Made by a program: the position numbers and the translations under genes. DNA of 64,000 nucleotides from Porticoccaceae bacterium (GTDB lineage: Bacteria; Pseudomonadota; Gammaproteobacteria; Pseudomonadales; Porticoccaceae), in NCBI GenBank assembly GCA_018654575.1, contig JABILI010000077.1:1-64000 (forward strand), given 5' to 3'. The notes under the pieces are model-generated. The model ran no database searches and had not been told where the DNA came from. It saw nothing but the letters and a program-made list of their open reading frames with translations. Positions 22,820 to 52,030 of the stretch are shown here, one piece after another (position 1 is the stretch's first letter; each line of letters starts with the position of its first letter).

Positions 22820-24460
22820 TTAAAGACTAGCAGGTCTTGCTGGTGAGCCTTGTAAAAAAGGGCCGTCAACACAAATACGCTGGCCATCGGGCGCTGCACA
22901 AGCTCCACAGATACCCACGCCACACTTCGTTAAGTAGTCAATGGCACTAAAAATCTGATCATCACGGCAAAACTCACGTTGCACTGCCGCGGCCGCATGT
23001 ACCATAGGTGAAGGACCACAGTTATAGAATACCAATTTATCCAGCTCAGTCGGCGTCATCTCCTCCAAACGGGCGCGCAACAACTCCGTGACAACCCCCT
23101 TAAAGCCCTCACTACCATCGTCAGTAGCCACATGTACATCCGCAATTCTCTGGCACTCTTCAAGATAGTAAAGGCGCTCTGCGGTGCGGGCACCTGTATA
23201 TATTTCAGCGTTACCAAAATCTCTAGCAAGTTGATACACAGCCGCTAAACCGGTTCCACCCGCAACAGCCATAATCTTGGCATCTTCAGGCGGCTCTACC
23301 GGAATGCCGTGCGGCCCACGCACGTAGACTTCAGATCCAACCGCTAAATCCATTAATTCGTGAGTAAAGGTACCCACATCAATAACCGCTAATTGAAAAG
23401 GATCATCTGAAAGAGCCGAAAAAGGCTTTTCGCCAACCCCAGGTATCCAAAGAAAAACAAATTCCCCGGCTTGTATGTTGATCTTTCGATCAAAGGTCAG
23501 AACACAAATATCCTCACACACACGCTTATTTTCCACCAGCACAACAGGCTGAAAGTCCATATCGATATCGTACCGGATATGTGCCTCGGCTTTATTACTG
23601 TCAAAGCAGACATCAGATTCAAGTTGACTAAAATAACTCCCAATATCATCGGTAGTCATACCCGTAAGTGCAGATCCAACCCCGACAATAGTAGACCCAG
23701 CGTCAATAAACTCTCGTACATCAGCGGCACTACTCACCCCACCACAACCGACAATGGGAACATCAGTCACTGCGGCAATTTCACGAATACATTTGAGCGC
23801 GATAGGCAGAACACCTTTGCCCGACATCCCTCCAGCGCCGTTACTTAGTACAGGCTGACCATGAGAGGACGTATAACCAGGCCCTACAGTGTTAATTGCG
23901 CACAGGCCATCTGCCCCACCAGCCACTGCGGCGAGTGCTATCTCACTAGTATTAGATGTATTAGGCGTTAATTTTGGGATCACAGGGATATCAACGACAG
24001 CTTTAACCGCAGCCGTCACTTCCCGAACCATATCTGGATCCTGACCCATGGCCATGCCATAACCTTTAGCATGCGGGCAAGAGAGATTTAGCTCGAGACC
24101 ATCGGCAACGGGCGCCATAATCTTAGCCACTTCAACAAACTCTTCAATGCTACCGCCAAAAATTGACACCAGTAAAAACCGATCTTCAGGAATACGCAAC
24201 GTCGACATTGCCGCTGCAGAGGCCTCAGCACCTGGGTTAGTTAAGCCTACGGCATTGACAAAGCAGCCCGGCGCATACTGACTATAGACAGGCTCACGAT
24301 TACCCGCACGTGGTGTGGGCCCAACACTTTTTGTCGTGATGACGCCAATCTGCGGCATATAATCAAACATAGCCTGAATAATCGAGGTTGCAGTAGTAAC
24401 AATTCCAGAGGGAATTGTGAAGGGGCCTGATAGGGTCTTGCCAAGAAACTCTGTTTTCAA
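22820..24460 (-). CDS. PyrD (class 1B)–PyrK fusion: dihydroorotate dehydrogenase-like flavoprotein with Fe-S/FAD reductase domain
   Basis: 546 residues. Residues 1–~295 are a PyrDB-type barrel: 'IGVITTKSVGPTPRAGN' (39–54), 'NLSCPH' with the class-1 catalytic Cys128 (Asn at the usual SCPN position is His here), 'PKLTPN' and 'CGGVSSAADVREFI'. Residues ~310–546 are PyrK-like: FAD-binding 'KPFSALSD', NAD-binding 'AVAGGTGLAAVYQ', and a [2Fe-2S] site at C513, C518, C521 and C530. In class 1B enzymes these are two separate subunits. Gammaproteobacteria usually carry the class 2 quinone-linked PyrD, so this may be extra, or may act on another dihydropyrimidine. Confidence 0.88.
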   Translation of the reverse strand: MKTEFLGKTLSGPFTIPSGIVTTATSIIQAMFDYMPQIGVITTKSVGPTPRAGNREPVYSQYAPGCFVNAVGLTNPGAEASAAAMSTLRIPEDRFLLVSIFGGSIEEFVEVAKIMAPVADGLELNLSCPHAKGYGMAMGQDPDMVREVTAAVKAVVDIPVIPKLTPNTSNTSEIALAAVAGGADGLCAINTVGPGYTSSHGQPVLSNGAGGMSGKGVLPIALKCIREIAAVTDVPIVGCGGVSSAADVREFIDAGSTIVGVGSALTGMTTDDIGSYFSQLESDVCFDSNKAEAHIRYDIDMDFQPVVLVENKRVCEDICVLTFDRKINIQAGEFVFLWIPGVGEKPFSALSDDPFQLAVIDVGTFTHELMDLAVGSEVYVRGPHGIPVEPPEDAKIMAVAGGTGLAAVYQLARDFGNAEIYTGARTAERLYYLEECQRIADVHVATDDGSEGFKGVVTELLRARLEEMTPTELDKLVFYNCGPSPMVHAAAAVQREFCRDDQIFSAIDYLTKCGVGICGACAAPDGQRICVDGPFLQGSPARPASL

Positions 24461-29350: not shown

Positions 29351-29376
29351 TGTTGATTAGGAAGGTAGTTTATATA

Positions 29377-30030
29377 ATGTTGGGCTTAAAAATTAAACTT
29401 GTTGACGAAAGCGAAGAACCGAGCAAGACAACTGCATCGTTGAGTACTGAGAAGCGCTCTGATCAGTGGTCCCTGTTACTCGTTTCCGTCGCTGAGAATC
29501 TTGACAGGCGCGCCTTTAACCAACTATTCAACCATTTTGCACCCTTACTAAAAAGTTTTGCTCAAGCAAGCCGTCATGAAGGATGGTTCCCTGGCTTAAG
29601 TGAGGATTTAGTGCAAGAGGTAATGATTAAGGTATGGCAGAAAGCGGCAAGCTATAATCCAGAAAAAGCCTCTGCAACGACTTGGATCTACACCGTCGCT
29701 CGGAATTGTAGAATCGACATGCTGCGCCGCAAGAGTAACACTCAGCACTTACCTCTTGAGAACGAAGATTTTTGGCATGAAGCAGACGAGGATACCCCCG
29801 TCTCTTTGATGAGACAAAAGCGCAGTGAAGACAAGGTTCAATCATGTCTTGCCCGACTGCCAAAAGAACAAGATGAGGTCCTTCGCAAAGTCTATTTAGA
29901 GGGTAAATCGCACGCAGAGGCATCCAATGAACTTGGTTTGCCGCTAGGAACCGTAAAATCAAGAGTGCGACTAGCACTTCAAAAAATGCAAATTTTGGTA
30001 GCACCAGAGTTTAGGGATGAAGTGTTATGA
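29377..30030 (+). CDS. ECF RNA polymerase sigma factor, RpoE/ChrR-linked group
   Basis: About 217 residues from the ATG at 29377 (AGGAAGG ends 10 nt upstream; a TTG at 29353 extends the frame by eight codons). Region 2: 'FNHFAPLLKSFAQ', 'DLVQEVMIKVWQKAASYNPEKASATTWIYTVARN' and 'DMLRR'. Region 4: 'RLPKEQDEVLRKVYLEGKSHAEASNELGLPLGTVKSRVRLAL'. The acidic linker 'FWHEADEDTP' is typical of this group. It overlaps the ChrR-like gene by 4 bp (ATGA). By homology it should respond to singlet oxygen and activate membrane- and DNA-repair functions. Confidence 0.88.
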   Translation: MLGLKIKLVDESEEPSKTTASLSTEKRSDQWSLLLVSVAENLDRRAFNQLFNHFAPLLKSFAQASRHEGWFPGLSEDLVQEVMIKVWQKAASYNPEKASATTWIYTVARNCRIDMLRRKSNTQHLPLENEDFWHEADEDTPVSLMRQKRSEDKVQSCLARLPKEQDEVLRKVYLEGKSHAEASNELGLPLGTVKSRVRLALQKMQILVAPEFRDEVL

Positions 30031-30698
30031 GTACAGTTAACCATCATCCTGAATCTTCAATGTTAGTTGATTTTTCCGCGGGCAACCTTGCCATCGCACC
30101 ATCTATATGTGTTTCAGCGCACCTACACTTCTGCAATCAATGCCGTAATGAGTTATTACGCCTTGACCAAGTAGGGTCTAAGTTGATGAGTGAAGTGGAA
30201 CTGACGGAGGTAGGCGATCACTTATTTGATTCGGTGATCACTCAGATTGACCAATTGCCCGACAGCTCTGCTCCTGCTGTAAGTAGCACCTCTGACATGG
30301 CTGATGGCCGCTACCCCCTCTTAGTTAATAAGCTAATAAATGGTAGTGAGGCTGCACCTACTTGGCGCCGCATGTCTGCATCGGTAGATGTAGCTCAGGT
30401 TACCACTGGCCAAAAAGAGTATGAAGTTGCTCTGCATAAAATTTGTGCTGGTGGAAAGACGCCACGTCATAATCATAATGGTCAAGAATTTACCGTGGTA
30501 CTCAAAGGCAGCTTTTCTGATGAGCATGCAGTTTATAAAGAAGGTGATTTCTTGTTCTGCGAGCCCGGTGACATTCACCAACCGATGGGGGCCCAAAATG
30601 GTGAATGTATTTGCCTTTCGGCCTTAGCTGCTCCAATCAAACTCTCGAACCCATTTGGATTTTTAATGAACCCTTGGCTGCGCATCAACCCGATGTAG
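30027..30698 (+). CDS. ChrR-type zinc anti-sigma factor with cupin domain
   Basis: 223 residues. The N-terminal anti-sigma domain has the zinc ligands H6/H7, H32, C36 and C39 (HxxxCxxC). The C-terminal cupin has H148, H150, E154 and H184, with exactly the spacing of R. sphaeroides ChrR H141, H143, E147 and H177. In that protein the N-domain holds the sigma factor and the cupin is needed for release under singlet oxygen. Coupled to the sigma gene by overlap; a strong terminator follows. Confidence 0.9.
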   Translation: MSTVNHHPESSMLVDFSAGNLAIAPSICVSAHLHFCNQCRNELLRLDQVGSKLMSEVELTEVGDHLFDSVITQIDQLPDSSAPAVSSTSDMADGRYPLLVNKLINGSEAAPTWRRMSASVDVAQVTTGQKEYEVALHKICAGGKTPRHNHNGQEFTVVLKGSFSDEHAVYKEGDFLFCEPGDIHQPMGAQNGECICLSALAAPIKLSNPFGFLMNPWLRINPM

Positions 30699-45017: not shown

Positions 45018-46325
45018 TTATTTCTCGAACAATGCCATTGCTTCCACATGGGCGGTATGAGGGAACATATCTAGCACCCCAAGATCTTTCATCTTATAGC
45101 CGGCGTCTAAAAGATGCTTTGCGTCTCTGACCATTGTCGACGGATGGCAGGAAATATAAATCACCTGTTTGGCTCCTGACTTAGCGACCCAAGGCATGAT
45201 ATCTATGGCGCCACTACGTGGCGGATCAAGCACTACTAAGTCTAGCGATTTTGGGATTTCCTTTATTTTATTTAGACTGTTCTTCTGAGTAAGATCGGCT
45301 GTAAAAAATTGTGCAGTCGTGATCTCGTTTTCGATAGCATTTTGTGCGGCGCCGGCCACTAAACTATTCAATCCTTCAACACCAATCACTTGATCAAACT
45401 GCTTTGCTAAGGGCAATGAAAGATTACCAGCTCCGCAGAATAAGTCGACCGCAACACCCGAACTGCTAGGAGAGACTAGCCGGAGCATTTGATCCACCAT
45501 TTTGGTATTAATCTCGCCATTCACTTGAATGAACTGTCCTGGCTTAAAACGGAACTTAAGGTCTCCCGGCACATTAAGATACAGCTCGTCAGCGCCCTCG
45601 TCTAACCGACGAAACTGGCCATTCTTACCCACCTTCCACCAACACTGGATAGGGGGCTCTCCAAGAGCCTGGAGGCTTTCTCTTATATCCTTGAGCTCAT
45701 CTTCTTTAAGTCGACGACTCGCTTCCAGCGCAATTGCGATGGCATTATCAGCACGGACCAACTCTACCTCATAAAGGGTAATATCTGTGGGTAATAATTG
45801 TAGCCACTGCGGCAATACGACTAAGAGTGCCGCTAAAGAATCATCCAACACGAGGCACTCGGTAATAGGCCCTATTCGCCGACTGCCTGTATTACGAAAG
45901 CCAACAATAAACTGACCGTCCTTAGCTCTTTGCACTGCAAGCCGGGCACGACGTCGATAACCCCATTGAGAACCATTGATCGGTGTTAGTAATGACTCAG
46001 TCATTACATTTGCCCGCTCGAAACTATTCAACACCTGAGTTTTTTTAAATTTAATTTGTTGCTGGTGATCAAGGTGCTGCAAGCTGCAACCACCACAACG
46101 AGAAAAGTGCTTACAGCCGGGTTCTACTCGATGTTCTGAGGTTATACTAAGACTGCGTATACGCCCTTCACCGTAATTACGCTTTTCATTGGTAACTTGA
46201 AACTCAACCGACTCACCTGGCAGTGCACCCTCGACAAAATAGGCTTTACCGTTAATTCGACCTACACCTCGGCCATCATGAAGAAGATCCACGATATCGC
46301 AATTGAGAAGCCGCTGTTTAACCAT
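45018..46325 (-). CDS. rlmD: 23S rRNA (uracil-1939-C5)-methyltransferase RlmD
   Basis: 435 residues: a TRAM domain (~5–62), [4Fe-4S] cysteines C71, C77, C80 and one in 'GPITECLVL' (~158), matching the E. coli RumA pattern, then the SAM domain with 'VDLFCGAGNLSLPLA', 'VLDPPRSGA', catalytic Cys in 'YISCHPSTMVRDA' and base Glu in 'FPHTAHVEAMA'. It methylates U1939. The 122-bp gap to glyA contains no clear terminator. Confidence 0.94.
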   Translation of the reverse strand: MVKQRLLNCDIVDLLHDGRGVGRINGKAYFVEGALPGESVEFQVTNEKRNYGEGRIRSLSITSEHRVEPGCKHFSRCGGCSLQHLDHQQQIKFKKTQVLNSFERANVMTESLLTPINGSQWGYRRRARLAVQRAKDGQFIVGFRNTGSRRIGPITECLVLDDSLAALLVVLPQWLQLLPTDITLYEVELVRADNAIAIALEASRRLKEDELKDIRESLQALGEPPIQCWWKVGKNGQFRRLDEGADELYLNVPGDLKFRFKPGQFIQVNGEINTKMVDQMLRLVSPSSSGVAVDLFCGAGNLSLPLAKQFDQVIGVEGLNSLVAGAAQNAIENEITTAQFFTADLTQKNSLNKIKEIPKSLDLVVLDPPRSGAIDIMPWVAKSGAKQVIYISCHPSTMVRDAKHLLDAGYKMKDLGVLDMFPHTAHVEAMALFEK

Positions 46326-46677
46326 AGGATGCCTAGATGGGATTATCAGAAATAGCGTTTATATTTAGCAAAGAGTCACCAATAAAACCCGTTTGGGTCG
46401 CTAGTTTACACTCTGGACTATGGAGCCGCTAAAAAAAGATTTATATCGAACCTAAAATAGGCAATCTAATTAGACCTTAAGGCCGTAATCCAAAGGCAAT
46501 AAGGTAAATAAATTATCCTAATCAATTAAAACTATTAGACCAAGTGCAAAGATTAGGATTACACTGGAATCGAGGCTTTTAAGTTAGCTCTCACAAAAAT
46601 ATAACCTCACAACTGTAGAGGTCTTTTAACGCAGATATGAATCACTTATGTTTATATCTGATATACGAGGTATAACT
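46326..46677. other. Divergent intergenic region rlmD / rubrerythrin
   Basis: 352 bp, A/T rich, holding promoters in both directions. No RNA gene or strong hairpin was found. The upstream in-frame ATG at 46648 is unlikely to be used: the ribosome site ACGAGG lies ~7 nt before the ATG at 46678. Confidence 0.5.
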
Positions 46678-47097
46678 ATGTCATTACAAGGTTCAAAAAC
46701 CGAAGAAAGCTTAAAAGCCGCATTTGCTGGTGAATCTCAAGCCAACCGTCGTTACCTATATTTCGCCGCCAAAGCTGACGTTGAGGGCTACAACGATGTA
46801 GCTGCAGTGTTTCGCTCGACCGCAGAAGGTGAGACTGGTCATGCGCACGGTCATCTTGAATATCTCGAGGAAACCGGCGATCCAGCGACTGGGATGCCAT
46901 TTGGCGGTACTCAAGAGAATCTTGAAAGCGCTATTGCTGGTGAGACCCATGAGTACACTGACATGTATCCAGGTATGGCAAAAACTGCTCGTGACGAGGG
47001 TTTTGACGAGATAGCTGATTGGTTCGAAACGCTGGCGAAGGCAGAACGCAGCCACGCTAACCGATTCCAAAAAGCGCTCGATCAGCTGGACGATTAA
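46678..47097 (+). CDS. Rubrerythrin (without rubredoxin domain)
   Basis: 139 residues, a ferritin-like four-helix di-iron protein: '[16 protein letters not shown]' (~12–27) and '[15 protein letters not shown]' (~43–57) for the first iron ligands, '[17 protein letters not shown]' (~75–91) and '[11 protein letters not shown]' (~117–127) for the second. It lacks the C-terminal CxxC rubredoxin module. Rubrerythrins reduce hydrogen peroxide, here needing a separate electron donor; the Fe-S oxidoreductase gene 94 bp downstream is the obvious candidate. A start at 46678 matches the family length. Confidence 0.92.
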
Positions 47098-47125
47098 ACG
47101 GCTCTATAACCAGTTTTATCGCTAG

Positions 47126-47153
47126 TGCTGGGGCATTGAATATGGCTCCAGCA
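47126..47153 (+). terminator. Hairpin between rubrerythrin and Fe-S oxidoreductase genes
   Basis: TGCTGGGGC (47126–47134) pairs with GCTCCAGCA (47145–47153), one G·U, 10-nt loop, followed by TTT. It is either a partial terminator that lowers downstream expression relative to rubrerythrin, or an mRNA-stabilising hairpin. Confidence 0.5.
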
Positions 47154-47191
47154 TTTCTGTGGCCCCCTGTTAATGCTTTAGGAGATAATAA

Positions 47192-48529
47192 GTGGCTCAA
47201 CGTGAAGGTAATTTAGTCGCGCCAACGCGCCATCCTTTGGACTGGCAGTCAGACGCATTTTATGACCAAGAATCTCTCGATACAGAGCTAGAGCGTGTAT
47301 TTGATATCTGCCACGGCTGTCGAAGATGCGTCAATCTCTGCGACTCATTTCCAACACTGTTTGATCTTGTCGACGAATCAGAGACTTTTGAAGTAGACGG
47401 CGTTGATAAGACTGATTTCAGTAAAGTAAGCGACCAGTGCTACCTCTGTGACCTATGCTATATGACCAAATGCCCTTACACTCCTCCTCACGAGTGGGCT
47501 GTGGATTTTCCTCACCTTATGCTAAGAGCTAAGGCGGTAAAGTTTGAACAACAAGGTGCAAAACTGCGCGATAAAGTCCTCACCAATACCGACACCGTGG
47601 GCAAGCTTGCCTCCATTCCTTTGGTTGATATCACCGTCAACGCGTTAAATAAAAACACCCTATTCCGCAAGGCTCTGGACAATGGCTTTGGAGTTCACCA
47701 TGAAGCGCCAGTACCTGAATATCACAGCAACACCCTGCGCAAGCGTATGGCGTCAGTCATTAAAGATGATGTGCCGGTTGAAGTAGCATCCGTTGGTAAG
47801 ACCACCGGCAAAATTGCCCTTTATGTGACCTGCTATGGCAACTACAACAGTCCAACTCTAGGGGAGGACTTCTACCAGGTGTTTCGCCACAACGGCATCC
47901 AAATGGATCTTGTCTCAAAAGAACGATGCTGCGGCATGCCTAAACTAGAATTAGGCGACCTCAAGGCGGTGGAAAAACTGAAAAACGCCAATATCCCAGT
48001 GTTGGCAAAACTGGTTGACGAGGGCTATGACCTGACCGCTCCAATTCCGTCCTGCGTGTTAATGTACAAGCAAGAACTGCCGCTTATATTCCCCGGGGAC
48101 CCAGACGTTATAAAGGTCCAAAAAGCGTTTTTTGACCCCTTTGAATACCTCTTTTTACGTCACAAAGAAGGTGCATTAAACACCGACTTCGCCAATCCTT
48201 TAGGGGGTATTAGCTACCAAGTTGCATGTCACCAAAGAGTCCAGAATATTGGCCTCAAGACAAGGGATATTTTGAGCCTAATCCCTGATACCAAAGTGCA
48301 CTCCATCGAAAGATGCTCAGGGCATGACGGCACCTACGCGGTAAAAACAGAAACCCGAGACAAATCAGTAAAAATTGCGCGGCCAGTGGTTCGTAAAGCC
48401 AATGACCAAAACGCAGACCACTTTACGAGTGACTGCCCCATGGCAGCTACCCACATTAGTAATCTTTCAAGCTCAGATAAAAAGCCAGAACACCCAATGA
48501 CTTTGCTGAGAACATCTTACGGAATTTAA
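47192..48529 (+). CDS. GlpC/HdrB-like Fe-S oxidoreductase (CCG domains)
   Basis: 445 residues, GTG start with GGAG 8 nt upstream. Two cubane sites lie near the N-terminus: C40xxC43xxC46xxxC50 and C83xxC86xxC89 with C94. The C-terminal half has a CCG motif ('ERCCGMPKLE', ~250) and a degenerate second one ('ERCSGHDGTYA', ~390), as in GlpC and heterodisulfide-reductase subunit HdrB relatives. It likely passes electrons from a flavoprotein or quinone to a partner; rubrerythrin upstream and DUF3501 downstream (9 bp) suggest that partner. No own flavin domain. Confidence 0.88.
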   Translation: MAQREGNLVAPTRHPLDWQSDAFYDQESLDTELERVFDICHGCRRCVNLCDSFPTLFDLVDESETFEVDGVDKTDFSKVSDQCYLCDLCYMTKCPYTPPHEWAVDFPHLMLRAKAVKFEQQGAKLRDKVLTNTDTVGKLASIPLVDITVNALNKNTLFRKALDNGFGVHHEAPVPEYHSNTLRKRMASVIKDDVPVEVASVGKTTGKIALYVTCYGNYNSPTLGEDFYQVFRHNGIQMDLVSKERCCGMPKLELGDLKAVEKLKNANIPVLAKLVDEGYDLTAPIPSCVLMYKQELPLIFPGDPDVIKVQKAFFDPFEYLFLRHKEGALNTDFANPLGGISYQVACHQRVQNIGLKTRDILSLIPDTKVHSIERCSGHDGTYAVKTETRDKSVKIARPVVRKANDQNADHFTSDCPMAATHISNLSSSDKKPEHPMTLLRTSYGI

Positions 48530-48538
48530 AGGCGATTT

Positions 48539-49132
48539 ATGAACCAACTCACGCGACAAGACCTTTGGTCATTAGAACAATATTCAGAGCGACGGCAGTC
48601 ATTTCGCGCTGAAGTAATGATGCATAAAAAAAACCGCCAGATCACACTAGGCACCCATGCTCGGTTTTGTTTTGAAGACCAACTCACAATGCGCTACCAA
48701 ATCCAAGAAATGTTGCGCATCGAACGTATCTTTGAAGCCGGCGCTATTCAAGAAGAGCTCGATACATACAATCCCCTTGTTCCGGATGGCAGAAACCTCA
48801 AAGCAACCTTTATGCTTGAATATGACGACATCGACCAGCGTAAAGTTATGCTGCAAAAACTTAGAGGCGTCGAAAAGCAACTATGGCTTGAAGTAGAAGA
48901 TATGCCGCGCATTACTCCTGTTGCTGACGAAGACCTAGAACGTGAAAACGATGAAAAAACATCAAGCGTGCACTTTCTGCGTTTTGAGTTTTCAATCGAA
49001 CAAATTGCGGCGCTCAAACAGGGAGCTAAACTCAGTTTAGGGATAGACACCCCATTAATAGAGCCCAACGCAATGGTTGTGCTTGACCCCATAAGGTCTG
49101 CCCTGATTAATGATTTCGACCCTGCAGATTAA
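48539..49132 (+). CDS. DUF3501 protein
   Basis: 197 residues, soluble, no signal peptide. 'LTRQDLWSLEQYSERRQSFRAEVMMHKKNRQI' at the N-terminus and 'LRIERIFEAGAIQEELDTYNPLVPDGRNLKATFMLEYDD' in the middle are typical of DUF3501. No catalytic motif is evident. The family is, to my knowledge, functionally uncharacterised but recurrently placed next to GlpC-like Fe-S proteins and rubrerythrins, as here (9 bp after the oxidoreductase). Likely an accessory of that redox complex. Confidence 0.85.
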   Translation: MNQLTRQDLWSLEQYSERRQSFRAEVMMHKKNRQITLGTHARFCFEDQLTMRYQIQEMLRIERIFEAGAIQEELDTYNPLVPDGRNLKATFMLEYDDIDQRKVMLQKLRGVEKQLWLEVEDMPRITPVADEDLERENDEKTSSVHFLRFEFSIEQIAALKQGAKLSLGIDTPLIEPNAMVVLDPIRSALINDFDPAD

Positions 49133-49246: not shown

Positions 49247-50791
49247 CTAAATAATTTGGGTTTTGTGGTCAGCCCAATACTTATCTCGGAGCAGGCGCTT
49301 ATAAAGTTTACCAGTAGGATGCCGAGGCAATTCCTTGTCAAAATCAACAGATTTAGGACATTTTATTTTCGCCAAACTCTGCTGGCAAAATACCATTAGT
49401 TCTTGCTCTAAGTCTGGCCCTACATCAGCCCAGTCCATTGGTTGGACAACGGCTTTAACCTCTTCACCAAAATCTTCATTAGGTACACCAAATACAGCGA
49501 CATCAGCGACCTGTGGATGCATGATCAATCGGTTTTCCGCTTCTTGTGGATAAATATTCACGCCACCTGATATGATCATAAAGGCCTTGCGATCGGTTAA
49601 ATACAAAAACCCCTCTTCGTCTACACGCCCTACATCACCGAGCGTTGTCCAGCCTTTTGCATGCTTTGACTCTTTCGTTTTGTCTGGATCATTGTAATAT
49701 TCGAACACAGGACCATCCGCGAAATAAATGGTTCCTGCCTCTCCTACAGCAACCTCATTCCCATCATCATCACAAATATGCAAAACGCCAACCATTGCCT
49801 TACCGACACTTCCTTTATGAGCCAACCATTCATCGGAGTTAATCGCGCAAAAGCCATTACCTTCTGAGCCAGCATAATACTCAAAAATCACCGATCCCCA
49901 CCAATCAATCATTTTTTCCTTGATCTCTATCGGGCAGGGCGCCGCCGCATGAATCGCAACCTGCAATGACGAAATATCATATTTAGTGCGGGTCTCTTCT
50001 GGCAATTTCAACATTTTTACAAACATAGTGGGCACCCACTGGCTGTGGGTGATCTGGTGTTTTTCAATCAAGCGTAACGCTTCTTCTTCATTAAAGTCTT
50101 CCATCACTACACTAGTGCCACCAAAGAGCAGCGTTACGAGGTTATAGCGCAGTGGAGCTGCATGATAGAGAGGCGCCGGAGATAAATAGACCGTTTCACT
50201 GCCAAAGCGGTAGAGCCCTTTTGACAACAGTACTAAATTAGCGGACTCATCTCCTACATTTGTATCTGGTAAAGGAATTTTAACGCCCTTGGGTTGCCCT
50301 GTAGTCCCCGAGGAGTAGAGCATATCAGTGCCGGCAGCTTCATCAACGATAGGGTATTGCGACATCTGGTCACGCAAGGCCTCGTAACTGTCATAGCCAC
50401 TTACTGTGCCATTAACCATTAGTCTAGATTGAACGGCAGACATATCATCAAGCAATTCAGTCGCCAACGCACCTTTCTCAATAGAGCTGATAAAGAGCTT
50501 TGCGCCACAGTCGTTAATAATATAGGCGGCCTCGTCGGCTGTAAGTCGAGAGCTAATGGCGGTATAAAATAAGCCAGTCCGCGCAGCTGCCATACAAATT
50601 TCAAGAAATCGGGCGTTATTTTCCATTAAGAGCGCAATATGATCACCTGTTTGCAAACCCAGCGACCTAAATAATTGGGATGTCTGGCATGTTCGTTCGT
50701 TTAACTGTTTATAAGTGACTGTCTCGCCACTGCCCGCCATAATATAAGCCGCTTTGTTGGGTGTCTGTTTTGCAAGGTCGCCGATGTACAC
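49247..50791 (-). CDS. AMP-forming acyl-CoA synthetase
   Basis: 514 residues, GTG start with GGAG ~8 nt upstream. Motifs: 'MLYSSGTTGQPKGVKI' (~157–172), 'YYAGSEGNG' (~308), 'GWTTLGDVGRVDEEGFLYLTDRKAFMIISGGVNIYPQE' (~382–420) and the acylation Lys in 'PTGKLYKR' near the end. FadD-like group acting on medium or long acyl, aryl or steroid side-chain acids; substrate not decidable. It is divergent from the hydroxyisobutyryl-CoA hydrolase gene. Confidence 0.88.
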   Translation of the reverse strand: MYIGDLAKQTPNKAAYIMAGSGETVTYKQLNERTCQTSQLFRSLGLQTGDHIALLMENNARFLEICMAAARTGLFYTAISSRLTADEAAYIINDCGAKLFISSIEKGALATELLDDMSAVQSRLMVNGTVSGYDSYEALRDQMSQYPIVDEAAGTDMLYSSGTTGQPKGVKIPLPDTNVGDESANLVLLSKGLYRFGSETVYLSPAPLYHAAPLRYNLVTLLFGGTSVVMEDFNEEEALRLIEKHQITHSQWVPTMFVKMLKLPEETRTKYDISSLQVAIHAAAPCPIEIKEKMIDWWGSVIFEYYAGSEGNGFCAINSDEWLAHKGSVGKAMVGVLHICDDDGNEVAVGEAGTIYFADGPVFEYYNDPDKTKESKHAKGWTTLGDVGRVDEEGFLYLTDRKAFMIISGGVNIYPQEAENRLIMHPQVADVAVFGVPNEDFGEEVKAVVQPMDWADVGPDLEQELMVFCQQSLAKIKCPKSVDFDKELPRHPTGKLYKRLLRDKYWADHKTQII

Positions 50792-50938
50792 TCAAGATCT
50801 CCGTTGGATACTTTAATACAACTACTCGAATTACCACGGAAGTAAATCATTTTTTGCATCCGGACCGCAAGCAAGGTCGACATTGGAGGTCTTTTTCGCT
50901 ACTGTCTAGGCCATTAATCTATTCATTTGGAGCTTCTA

Positions 50939-52030
50939 TTGAGCCATATTATTACTGACGTTATTGCCGGCGTTGGACTTATTACCCTTGACCGCCCAGC
51001 GGCCCTAAATGCACTTAACCTGGACATGATTCGCGACCTAACCAAAACGCTAATCGACTGGCGTGACGACTCGGCTATTGAAGCGGTTGCGGTGCGCGGT
51101 TCTAACAAGCATGGCCCTTTTGGTGCGTTTTGTGCTGGCGGTGATATTCGCTTTTTCCACACTGCGGGCGTTGCTAATGATCCTGATTTGGAGGCTTTTT
51201 TTACCGAAGAATATCAATTAAATTATTTAATTTTTAACTACCCAAAACCCTATCTAGCCTTTATGGATGGTATTGTTATGGGCGGTGGTATGGGCATTTC
51301 CCAAGGCGCTGTACTTAGAATTGTCACCGAACGAACTAAAATGGCGATGCCTGAAACCAATATTGGATTATTCCCCGATGTTGGCGGGGGTTATTTTCTT
51401 AGCCGATGCCCTGGCAGTAGCGGCGAGTACCTCGCTCTAACTGGAAAATTATTAGTTGGCGCTGACGCATTAGATGTCGATTTAGCCGATGGCCTTGCAG
51501 ATAGCGATGATATGGCTGATCTCTGGGACGGCCTCACCAATAACCCTATGATGTCTGTAACCGCGCGGATTGGCCGTTTGCAGAGTCGCCTCAAGCGGGG
51601 CACCTCATCAGACTGGCTAACACCCGATATTAACTCGATATTTTGCTTAGATAGCGTTAACGATATCATGCAAGCCTTGGCCGAGAGTGATTCACAATGG
51701 GCCGCAGACACCTTGGCAGTATTGCAAAAACGCTCACCTTTGATGCTCCATGTCACCTTTAAACAGCTTCGGCTTGGCCGCTCAATGTCGCTAGCAGATG
51801 ATCTTAGGATGGAAAGAACACTGGTAAGGCACTGCTTTCAAACTGATCATTTACAACGCTCGGGAACAACTAGCGAAACCGTCGAGGGTATTCGCGCGCT
51901 GGCCATAGACAAAGATCATAGTCCAGCATGGAACCCAGCCCGTATCGAAGAGGTAACGTCTGCCATGGTTGATCCTTTTTTTGAAAGTCCGTGGTCCGCT
52001 GAACATCACCCCTTAAAAGACTTGGTTTAA
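50939..52030 (+). CDS. 3-hydroxyisobutyryl-CoA hydrolase (HIBCH-type)
   Basis: 363 residues, crotonase superfamily. 'AFCAGGDIRFF' (~63–73) and 'GIVMGGGMGIS' (~110–120) form the oxyanion hole; 'MPETNIGLFPDVGGGYFLSR' (~139–158) is the HIBCH signature. The C-terminal ~120 residues match the HIBCH-specific extension. It hydrolyses 3-hydroxyisobutyryl-CoA in valine breakdown. The start was set to the TTG at 50939, which has GGAG 6 nt upstream (50929–50932); the longer frame from TTG 50927 would include that ribosome site. Confidence 0.88.
   Translation: MSHIITDVIAGVGLITLDRPAALNALNLDMIRDLTKTLIDWRDDSAIEAVAVRGSNKHGPFGAFCAGGDIRFFHTAGVANDPDLEAFFTEEYQLNYLIFNYPKPYLAFMDGIVMGGGMGISQGAVLRIVTERTKMAMPETNIGLFPDVGGGYFLSRCPGSSGEYLALTGKLLVGADALDVDLADGLADSDDMADLWDGLTNNPMMSVTARIGRLQSRLKRGTSSDWLTPDINSIFCLDSVNDIMQALAESDSQWAADTLAVLQKRSPLMLHVTFKQLRLGRSMSLADDLRMERTLVRHCFQTDHLQRSGTTSETVEGIRALAIDKDHSPAWNPARIEEVTSAMVDPFFESPWSAEHHPLKDLV

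Follow-up and report, generated by a model that had tools for sequence, protein, structure and literature searches.

We found that three adjacent genes in a 64,000-nucleotide stretch of DNA from a Porticoccaceae bacterium (the window; contig JABILI010000077.1, assembly GCA_018654575.1) are a member of the already known aerobic-type rubrerythrin system, an association published before. The system consists of a rubrerythrin (RBR), an iron-sulfur oxidoreductase (RFO) and DUF3501. It was described in 2016 by Cardenas, Quatrini and Holmes, who coined the name RFO for the GlpC-related Fe-S oxidoreductase (PMC5114695). Gene content, gene order, co-occurrence and conserved residues were observed directly here, and the link to peroxide comes by analogy from experiments on relatives, in which peroxidase activity and induction by H2O2 were measured. 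We consider it fairly probable that the trio is an electron-fed peroxidase in which RFO would act as a relay and DUF3501 would have an adaptor or assembly role. To the published description we add a cysteine signature that marks the RFO family, a conserved loop in DUF3501 and the documented loss of the trio, in place, from a lineage that carries the catalase-peroxidase KatG.

46678..47097, + strand: RBR (aerobic-type rubrerythrin), 139 residues, PF02915 E 6.1e-30; di-iron four-helix protein
47192..48529, + strand: RFO (GlpC-like iron-sulfur protein), GTG start, 445 residues, PF02754 (CCG) and 4Fe-4S dicluster domain
48539..49132, + strand: DUF3501, 197 residues, PF12007 E 3.1e-66, 223.4 bits against a cut-off of 25

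The trio is a conserved unit

Consistent with the initial annotation, which proposed three adjacent co-oriented genes, open reading frames (ORFs) and family profiles placed all three on the + strand within 46678-49132, with 94 bases between RBR and RFO and 9 bases between RFO and DUF3501. The ORF lister began RBR at 46648, 30 bases upstream of the ATG at 46678 where its homologues begin. The window has each component of the aerobic-type system: an RBR without a rubredoxin domain that is closest to sulerythrin and 4DI0, an adjacent PF12007 DUF3501 and an adjacent GlpC-related Fe-S oxidoreductase. The last was recognized by PF02754 (43.5 bits) and by GlpC models (E 6.5e-63 and 1.4e-39), and its COG0247-type membership was judged by these profiles. 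The three families also co-occur, as the published system does. In a survey of 4461 genomes, all three were found together in 185, and RBR and DUF3501 without RFO in 25 (PMC5114695). The trio is also carried by Andalucia and other protists, in which a mitochondrial location was predicted (PMC7050145), by a hot-spring operon and, together with OxyR, by Sideroxydans (PMC7852563), and by Acidihalobacter (PMC7760498). In families, adjacency and co-occurrence the window's trio is like the system described in 2016 and no different in content; what sets it apart is that it lies in a marine genome near Porticoccaceae/HTCC2207.

The co-occurrence check suggested by the initial annotation gave a clear result in a class-wide sample of 369 genomes: 153 had all three families, 203 had none and 13 had a partial set (DUF3501 only in 2, RFO only in 3, RBR only in 2, pairs in 6). 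DUF3501 was found in 160 genomes, RFO in 160 and RBR in 158, at cut-offs of E<=1e-3, E<=1e-60 and E<=1.5e-69, respectively; the RBR count leaves out nine weaker matches (E 1.1e-38 to 5.8e-31). Every pairwise association had a Fisher p of 1e-90 or below, which serves only as an indicator of strength since the genomes are related. Some of the 13 partial genomes may reflect contig breaks, because the matches in G415, G353 and G262 start within 260 bases of the contig's first base. Of the 155 genomes in which RBR and DUF3501 occur together, only 2 (G119 and G134) had no RFO.

Similarly, among 56 relatives, the 19 with all three families always had them close together on one contig. Two extra DUF3501 matches in this set were a relic in G007, described below, and a divergent lone copy in G043 (locus L020; 33% identity) that lies between genes that look by eye like an aldehyde dehydrogenase and an agmatinase. 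The G043 genome had no RBR match at E 1e-5 and no RFO match at E 1e-20. When 80 loci were retrieved with a DUF3501 query, and are thus uninformative on the presence of DUF3501 itself, RFO was found in 79 and RBR in 75, in the order RBR-RFO-DUF3501, and the loci missing RFO or RBR stop at a contig end there.

RBR and peroxidase evidence from relatives

RBR has no cysteine anywhere in its 139 residues and therefore no rubredoxin domain, as the initial annotation had claimed. It scored 136.9 bits against the RuberyRbr model of classical two-domain rubrerythrins, below the cut-off of 200. Its best sequence matches in the Protein Data Bank (PDB) were a Burkholderia pseudomallei rubrerythrin (4di0/9onm; E 3.9e-76 for 4di0) and Sulfolobus sulerythrin (1j30, E 9.7e-53), with the classical 1b71 at E 2.8e-27. 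Residues E19, E52, H55, E89, E92, E123 and H126 were conserved in 74/74 RBR sequences, and by comparison with rubrerythrin structures they are the candidate di-iron ligands. In the alignment, E52 and E123 match sulerythrin E53 and E126; these two are given in PDB titles as exchanged residues, and we regard them as the bridging ligands described in PMC12851003.

Two relatives of RBR have been studied biochemically. Ferriperoxin from Hydrogenobacter thermophilus is an NADPH- and FNR-dependent peroxidase; when it is disrupted, cells still grow at 0% and 2% O2 but no longer at 10% (PMC3317640). The diferrous form of sulerythrin from Sulfolobus tokodaii reacts fast with H2O2, whereas its reaction with O2 is very slow (PMC12851003). 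Both proteins are, like the window's RBR, without a rubredoxin domain, and both were grouped with B. pseudomallei 4DI0 (PMC5114695). By contrast with the window, they come from thermophiles, and in H. thermophilus the RFO gene lies away from those of RBR and DUF3501 (PMC5114695). In B. pseudomallei, a microarray after 10 min of exposure to 100 uM H2O2 showed log2 increases of 3.36 for bpss1839 (rubrerythrin), 3.31 for bpss1838 ('ferredoxin') and 3.37 for bpss1837 (hypothetical), and expression of bpss1837-1839 was reduced in a sigma E mutant (PMC4175613). A rubrerythrin protein has also been reported from Pelagibacterales (PMC8707726).

It could be argued that RBR mainly handles iron, as a ferroxidase or storage protein, and that its link to peroxide is secondary; PF00210 also matches it, in line with its place in the ferritin-like superfamily. 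However, the peroxidase activity, the aerobic growth defect and the H2O2 induction seen in relatives, as well as the MsrB and OxyR-like neighbours at part of the loci, make this role very improbable.

The altered CCG site is a hallmark of RFO

RFO carries four predicted cluster sites:

47309..47341, + strand: first cubane 4Fe-4S motif, C40-x2-C43-x2-C46-x3-C50 (CHGCRRCVNLC), four Cys in 96/96 RFO
47438..47473, + strand: second cubane 4Fe-4S motif, C83-x2-C86-x2-C89-x4-C94 (CYLCDLCYMTKC), four Cys in 96/96 RFO
47831..48055, + strand: first CCG site, C214, C246-C247, C288, four Cys in 96/96 RFO
48227..48436, + strand: second, altered CCG site, C346, C375-S376-G377-H378, C415, three Cys and His378 in 96/96

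The 96 sequences compared are those of 101 loci, minus three without RFO and two with a broken or cut RFO; all loci were found by DUF3501, and some are the same genome from two collections. Across this set, both cubane motifs of the GlpC/HdrB-like protein recognized by the initial annotation are invariant. The same annotation read one CCG motif as intact and one as altered to CSG. The altered motif was confirmed, but the first site is not intact: its fifth Cys is replaced by Met291 (C288-x2-M291; Met in 95/96, Gln in 1). E. coli GlpC likewise lacks a fifth Cys at the first CCG site. In the second site, 88 sequences have Ser and 8 have Ala at position 376, so that the second cysteine is never kept. 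Position 418 corresponds to the last Cys of GlpC; here 91 sequences have Ala, 5 have Gly and none has Cys, although one has a Cys at 419. Arg374 is invariant. E. coli GlpC, which is 28% identical to RFO, has CC and CxxC at this site. Judged from these sequences, the CSG motif is a hallmark of the RFO family and not local decay, with two of the five cysteines gone. The part of the 2016 description available to us makes no mention of this loss of two cysteines (PMC5114695).

RFO is thus similar to GlpC (anaerobic glycerol-3-phosphate dehydrogenase subunit C) in overall sequence, in both cubane motifs and in the first CCG site, but differs from it in a longer N-terminus, in the two cysteines lost at the second CCG site and in its genomic setting, as the trio is flanked by rlmD and a fadD4-like gene and not by glpA/glpB. 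RFO fell below the cut-offs of the GlpC equivalog models (213 bits against 278, and 136 against 279.9). Structural matches to LutA, EtfD and HdrB were obtained with the RFO portion of a related fusion. RFO also departs from the five-Cys CCG sites of catalytic HdrB/HdrD, having Met291, Ala/Gly418 and Ser/Ala376. Kinship to GlpC, LutA, EtfD and HdrB would suit an RFO that works in reverse or on a different substrate, thiol- or quinone-linked as in the GlpC/Hdr kind, and that shares only regulation with RBR. By HdrB numbering, however, we take the fifth CCG Cys to be the one that serves Hdr as its catalytic bridge (PMC13083937), and it is gone at both CCG sites. In addition, of the nine recurrent neighbour groups tested by a representative, seven matched Pfam families, none of them a GlpA-type dehydrogenase, and two matched none, within the limits of crude ORF calling and coverage of part of the groups. 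We therefore think such a separate function quite improbable.

In EtfD of Mycobacterium smegmatis, Thr replaces one Cys of the first CCG domain and a linear [3Fe-4S] cluster is held by four Cys, while the other CCG site has His in place of the bridging Cys; the authors suggest that fully coordinated, shielded clusters may be an adaptation to aerobic life (PMC13083937). RFO resembles EtfD as a putative CCG-domain electron wire with an altered cluster. However, EtfD sits in the membrane and keeps four Cys at its altered site, whereas the altered site of RFO lies in the other CCG domain and has, by sequence, three Cys and an invariant His, and so does not match the four-Cys site of the linear [3Fe-4S] type. 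It is possible that His378 or another residue provides a further ligand. The type of cluster at this site we infer from the motif; it could be a closed, oxygen-tolerant relay cluster that replaces the catalytic one.

Two lone RFO homologues offer a comparison. They are 46% and 44% identical to RFO (L109 on G266:C76 and L110 on G367:C170), come from one genus and lie in genomes with no DUF3501 match and with, respectively, no RBR match and a weak one (E 4.6e-31). Both have lost RCSGH (CIG/CAG, no His) and kept the first CCG pair. This pattern, seen in a single lineage only, would fit a second CCG site that serves RBR.

DUF3501 has a conserved loop

The predicted model of DUF3501 had a mean predicted local distance difference test score (pLDDT) of 91.5 and fell below 50 at residues 134-140, within a conserved loop:

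48929..48961, + strand: DUF3501 conserved loop, residues 131-141; E131, D132, R135 and K140 in >=98/99 sequences

A stretch that is conserved yet modelled with low confidence may be a mobile loop with a function. The alignment has no conserved Cys column (C44 varies), and DUF3501 has no recognizable cofactor motif. Because of the latter, an electron carrier is unlikely, and an adaptor or assembly factor is favoured, which we put forward with modest confidence from the sequence. The fold search returned two matches at E<=0.001, both chains of 3fjv, the B. pseudomallei homologue. This is the sole clear structural match among the folds listed, and the search gives no function. Kinship to CrdA was considered and rejected, its VIA-align Z of 6.3 (two entries) being too low beside 27.0 for 3fjv. 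NCBIfam models gave no match to DUF3501 at E 0.001, and published accounts that name DUF3501 give no function in the parts available to us.

RFO and DUF3501 form one open frame in Nitrosomonas mobilis (L073), the sole such case among the loci. The AlphaFold model of this fusion had a mean pLDDT of 85.0 and a predicted template modelling score (pTM) of 0.67. Its alignment (12/34 RFO rows and 34/34 DUF3501 rows) was chosen by alignment quality alone from 4 MAFFT settings, 9 subsets and 16 random subsets.

The trio was lost in place in a KatG-carrying lineage

Among named relatives, those closest to this locus are metagenome genomes of Porticoccaceae (best DUF3501 identity 94%) and one labelled HTCC2207 (68%); we take these to be SAR92-type marine gammaproteobacteria. 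In the window's genus, 11 of 35 genomes have the trio, 8 have KatG (PF00141), none has both and 16 have neither. The scavengers considered here were KatG and PF00199 catalase; AhpC, cytochrome c peroxidase and others were not searched. PF00199 was found in 0/35 genomes, and the window's own genome (97.55% complete) has neither PF00141 nor PF00199 at E 1e-20. The absence of PF00141 from the trio genomes (0/11 versus 8/24 of the others; one-sided p 0.031, two-sided p 0.037) also held among genomes at least 90% complete (0/10 versus 5/12, p 0.030) and among those of at least 2.0 Mb, a cut chosen afterwards (0/11 versus 7/12, p 0.003).

Three results speak against a general rule of mutual exclusion. 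Class-wide, PF00141 occurred in 58/160 genomes with DUF3501 and 66/209 without (p 0.37), which gives no link; at the level of the order, 3/21 genomes have both the trio and KatG; and in an RlmD tree, the 4 independent pairs on well-supported branches were opposite for KatG in 1.7 and showed no difference in 2.3 on average, so that the sign test was not significant (median p 0.5). This tree holds 29 of the 35 genomes, leaving out five without an RlmD match and G009, in which it is split over two contigs, all six being in the 'neither' group. KatG was also seen within about 0.4 kb of RBR in G173 (C10) and of DUF3501 in G294 (C33). With few independent pairs, no relation across the class and KatG adjoining trio genes in these two genomes, KatG may or may not have made the trio dispensable. 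The exclusion is a local pattern and not a law, new but modest. Among the matches listed in literature on catalase-peroxidase and rubrerythrin, there was no mention of SAR92.

Three KatG-bearing genomes without the trio retain traces of it. Relics of the DUF3501 3' end, 22, 67 and 23 residues long, were found in G003 (L115), G007 (L112) and G015 (L116) at the same locus, with rlmD on one side and the fadD or the hydrolase gene on the other. In G015, sequence like window positions 46490-46610 is followed directly by sequence like 49057 onward, with about 2.45 kb gone (RBR, RFO and most of DUF3501). As the relics lie in place, the trio was most likely present in an ancestor and was lost once or several times: in G003 and G015 the relics start at nearly the same codon, yet the RlmD tree puts G003 beside the trio-bearing G027 (support 90/79). 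The katG genes of all three genomes share the same surroundings, a LysR-family (OxyR-like) gene and rho, identified by eye. Between rlmD and the hydrolase/fadD genes, G007 has short-chain dehydrogenase/reductase, DCC1-like, DUF3429 and RDD genes, and the interval in G003 and G015 resembles it by eye, except for RDD. In G027:C29 and G017:C1, rlmD was matched in two pieces, as by a frame break, which may be a sequencing error or a real break.

Genes around the trio

The trio in the window is flanked as follows:

45018-46325, - strand: rlmD, upstream flank of the trio
49247-50791, - strand: fadD4-like acyl-CoA ligase gene, flank beyond DUF3501
50927-52030, + strand: 3-hydroxyisobutyryl-CoA hydrolase gene, next after the fadD4-like gene

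At other loci, with neighbour groups identified by one representative each, a LysR regulator lies beside RBR in 9 of the 74 loci with readable surroundings, MsrB was found in 10/74 and an FAD/NAD(P) reductase upstream in 7/74. The LysR representative tested matched OxyR best, with a score of 225 bits that falls short of the cut-off of 329. MsrB and the reductase stand for few independent events, because they come mostly from Thiobacillus and Hydrogenophilales loci. None of these three kinds of gene lies beside the window's own trio. A promoter and terminator scan of the locus found 4 and 3 sites, versus 4.6 and 3.3 in shuffled sequences, and thus no excess.

Elsewhere in the window, an extracytoplasmic function (ECF) sigma factor is followed by a ChrR-family anti-sigma factor (29353-30698; TIGR02451 158.3 bits, cut-off 124.5), 16 kb from the trio; pairs of this kind are known for photo-oxidative stress. 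A single ORF at 22820-24460 joins, as read by eye, a dihydroorotate-dehydrogenase-like domain to a PyrK-like FAD/2Fe-2S domain.

A model for the system

The initial annotation proposed a dedicated peroxide-defence set in aerobes. This part agrees with the co-occurrence, the gene order, the peroxidase activity of ferriperoxin and the H2O2 induction in B. pseudomallei; the electron transfer from RFO to RBR that it also proposed we infer. In the model that we favour, the di-iron site of RBR would reduce hydrogen peroxide, and probably organic hydroperoxides too, to water. Lacking a rubredoxin domain, RBR must receive its electrons from elsewhere. RFO would most likely be a soluble relay to RBR through its two cubane and CCG-domain clusters, with an FNR-type flavin reductase as the best candidate donor, and DUF3501 may dock to one of these two proteins, perhaps through the conserved loop.

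Several points weigh against this model. Ferriperoxin works in vitro on NADPH and FNR with no RFO, and its Km for H2O2 is high, at 1.6 mM (PMC3317640). Some archaea, the Thermoproteales, have RBR and DUF3501 without RFO (PMC5114695). RFO is therefore not indispensable for the chemistry. The fusion model predicts no fixed arrangement of RFO and DUF3501, and no interface was taken from it. Finally, bpss1837-1839 are equated with the trio by gene order, gene names and the species of PDB 3fjv, and not by sequence comparison.

The sufficiency of NADPH and FNR for ferriperoxin and the archaea without RFO would equally suit direct reduction of RBR by FNR, ferredoxin or another general carrier, with RFO and DUF3501 serving as maturation or repair factors, for instance in iron loading or re-reduction. 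The RBR of B. pseudomallei is promiscuous in its metal, taking up Mn, Co or Fe with partial occupancy (PMC12585693), which would also suit this explanation. However, the absence of RFO from only 2 of 155 genomes with RBR and DUF3501 is a closer association than an occasional repair factor would be expected to show, and we regard this explanation as plausible but unlikely.

A fuller version of the electron-fed peroxidase model, which we offer as a rather doubtful speculation, would join its parts: the three-Cys and His site of RFO, which has five Cys in GlpC, would hold a cluster of a new kind, by which a site resembling that of a disulfide reductase became an oxygen-tolerant peroxidase wire; DUF3501 would dock or gate by its mobile loop; and the trio would be a haem-free stand-in for KatG that is gained and lost in exchange for it among marine SAR92-type bacteria. 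RFO residues C346, C375, C415 and H378 and the DUF3501 loop 131-141 are direct handles on how both proteins work. If the trio does replace a haem catalase-peroxidase, this would bear on how iron- and haem-sparing marine bacteria handle peroxide.

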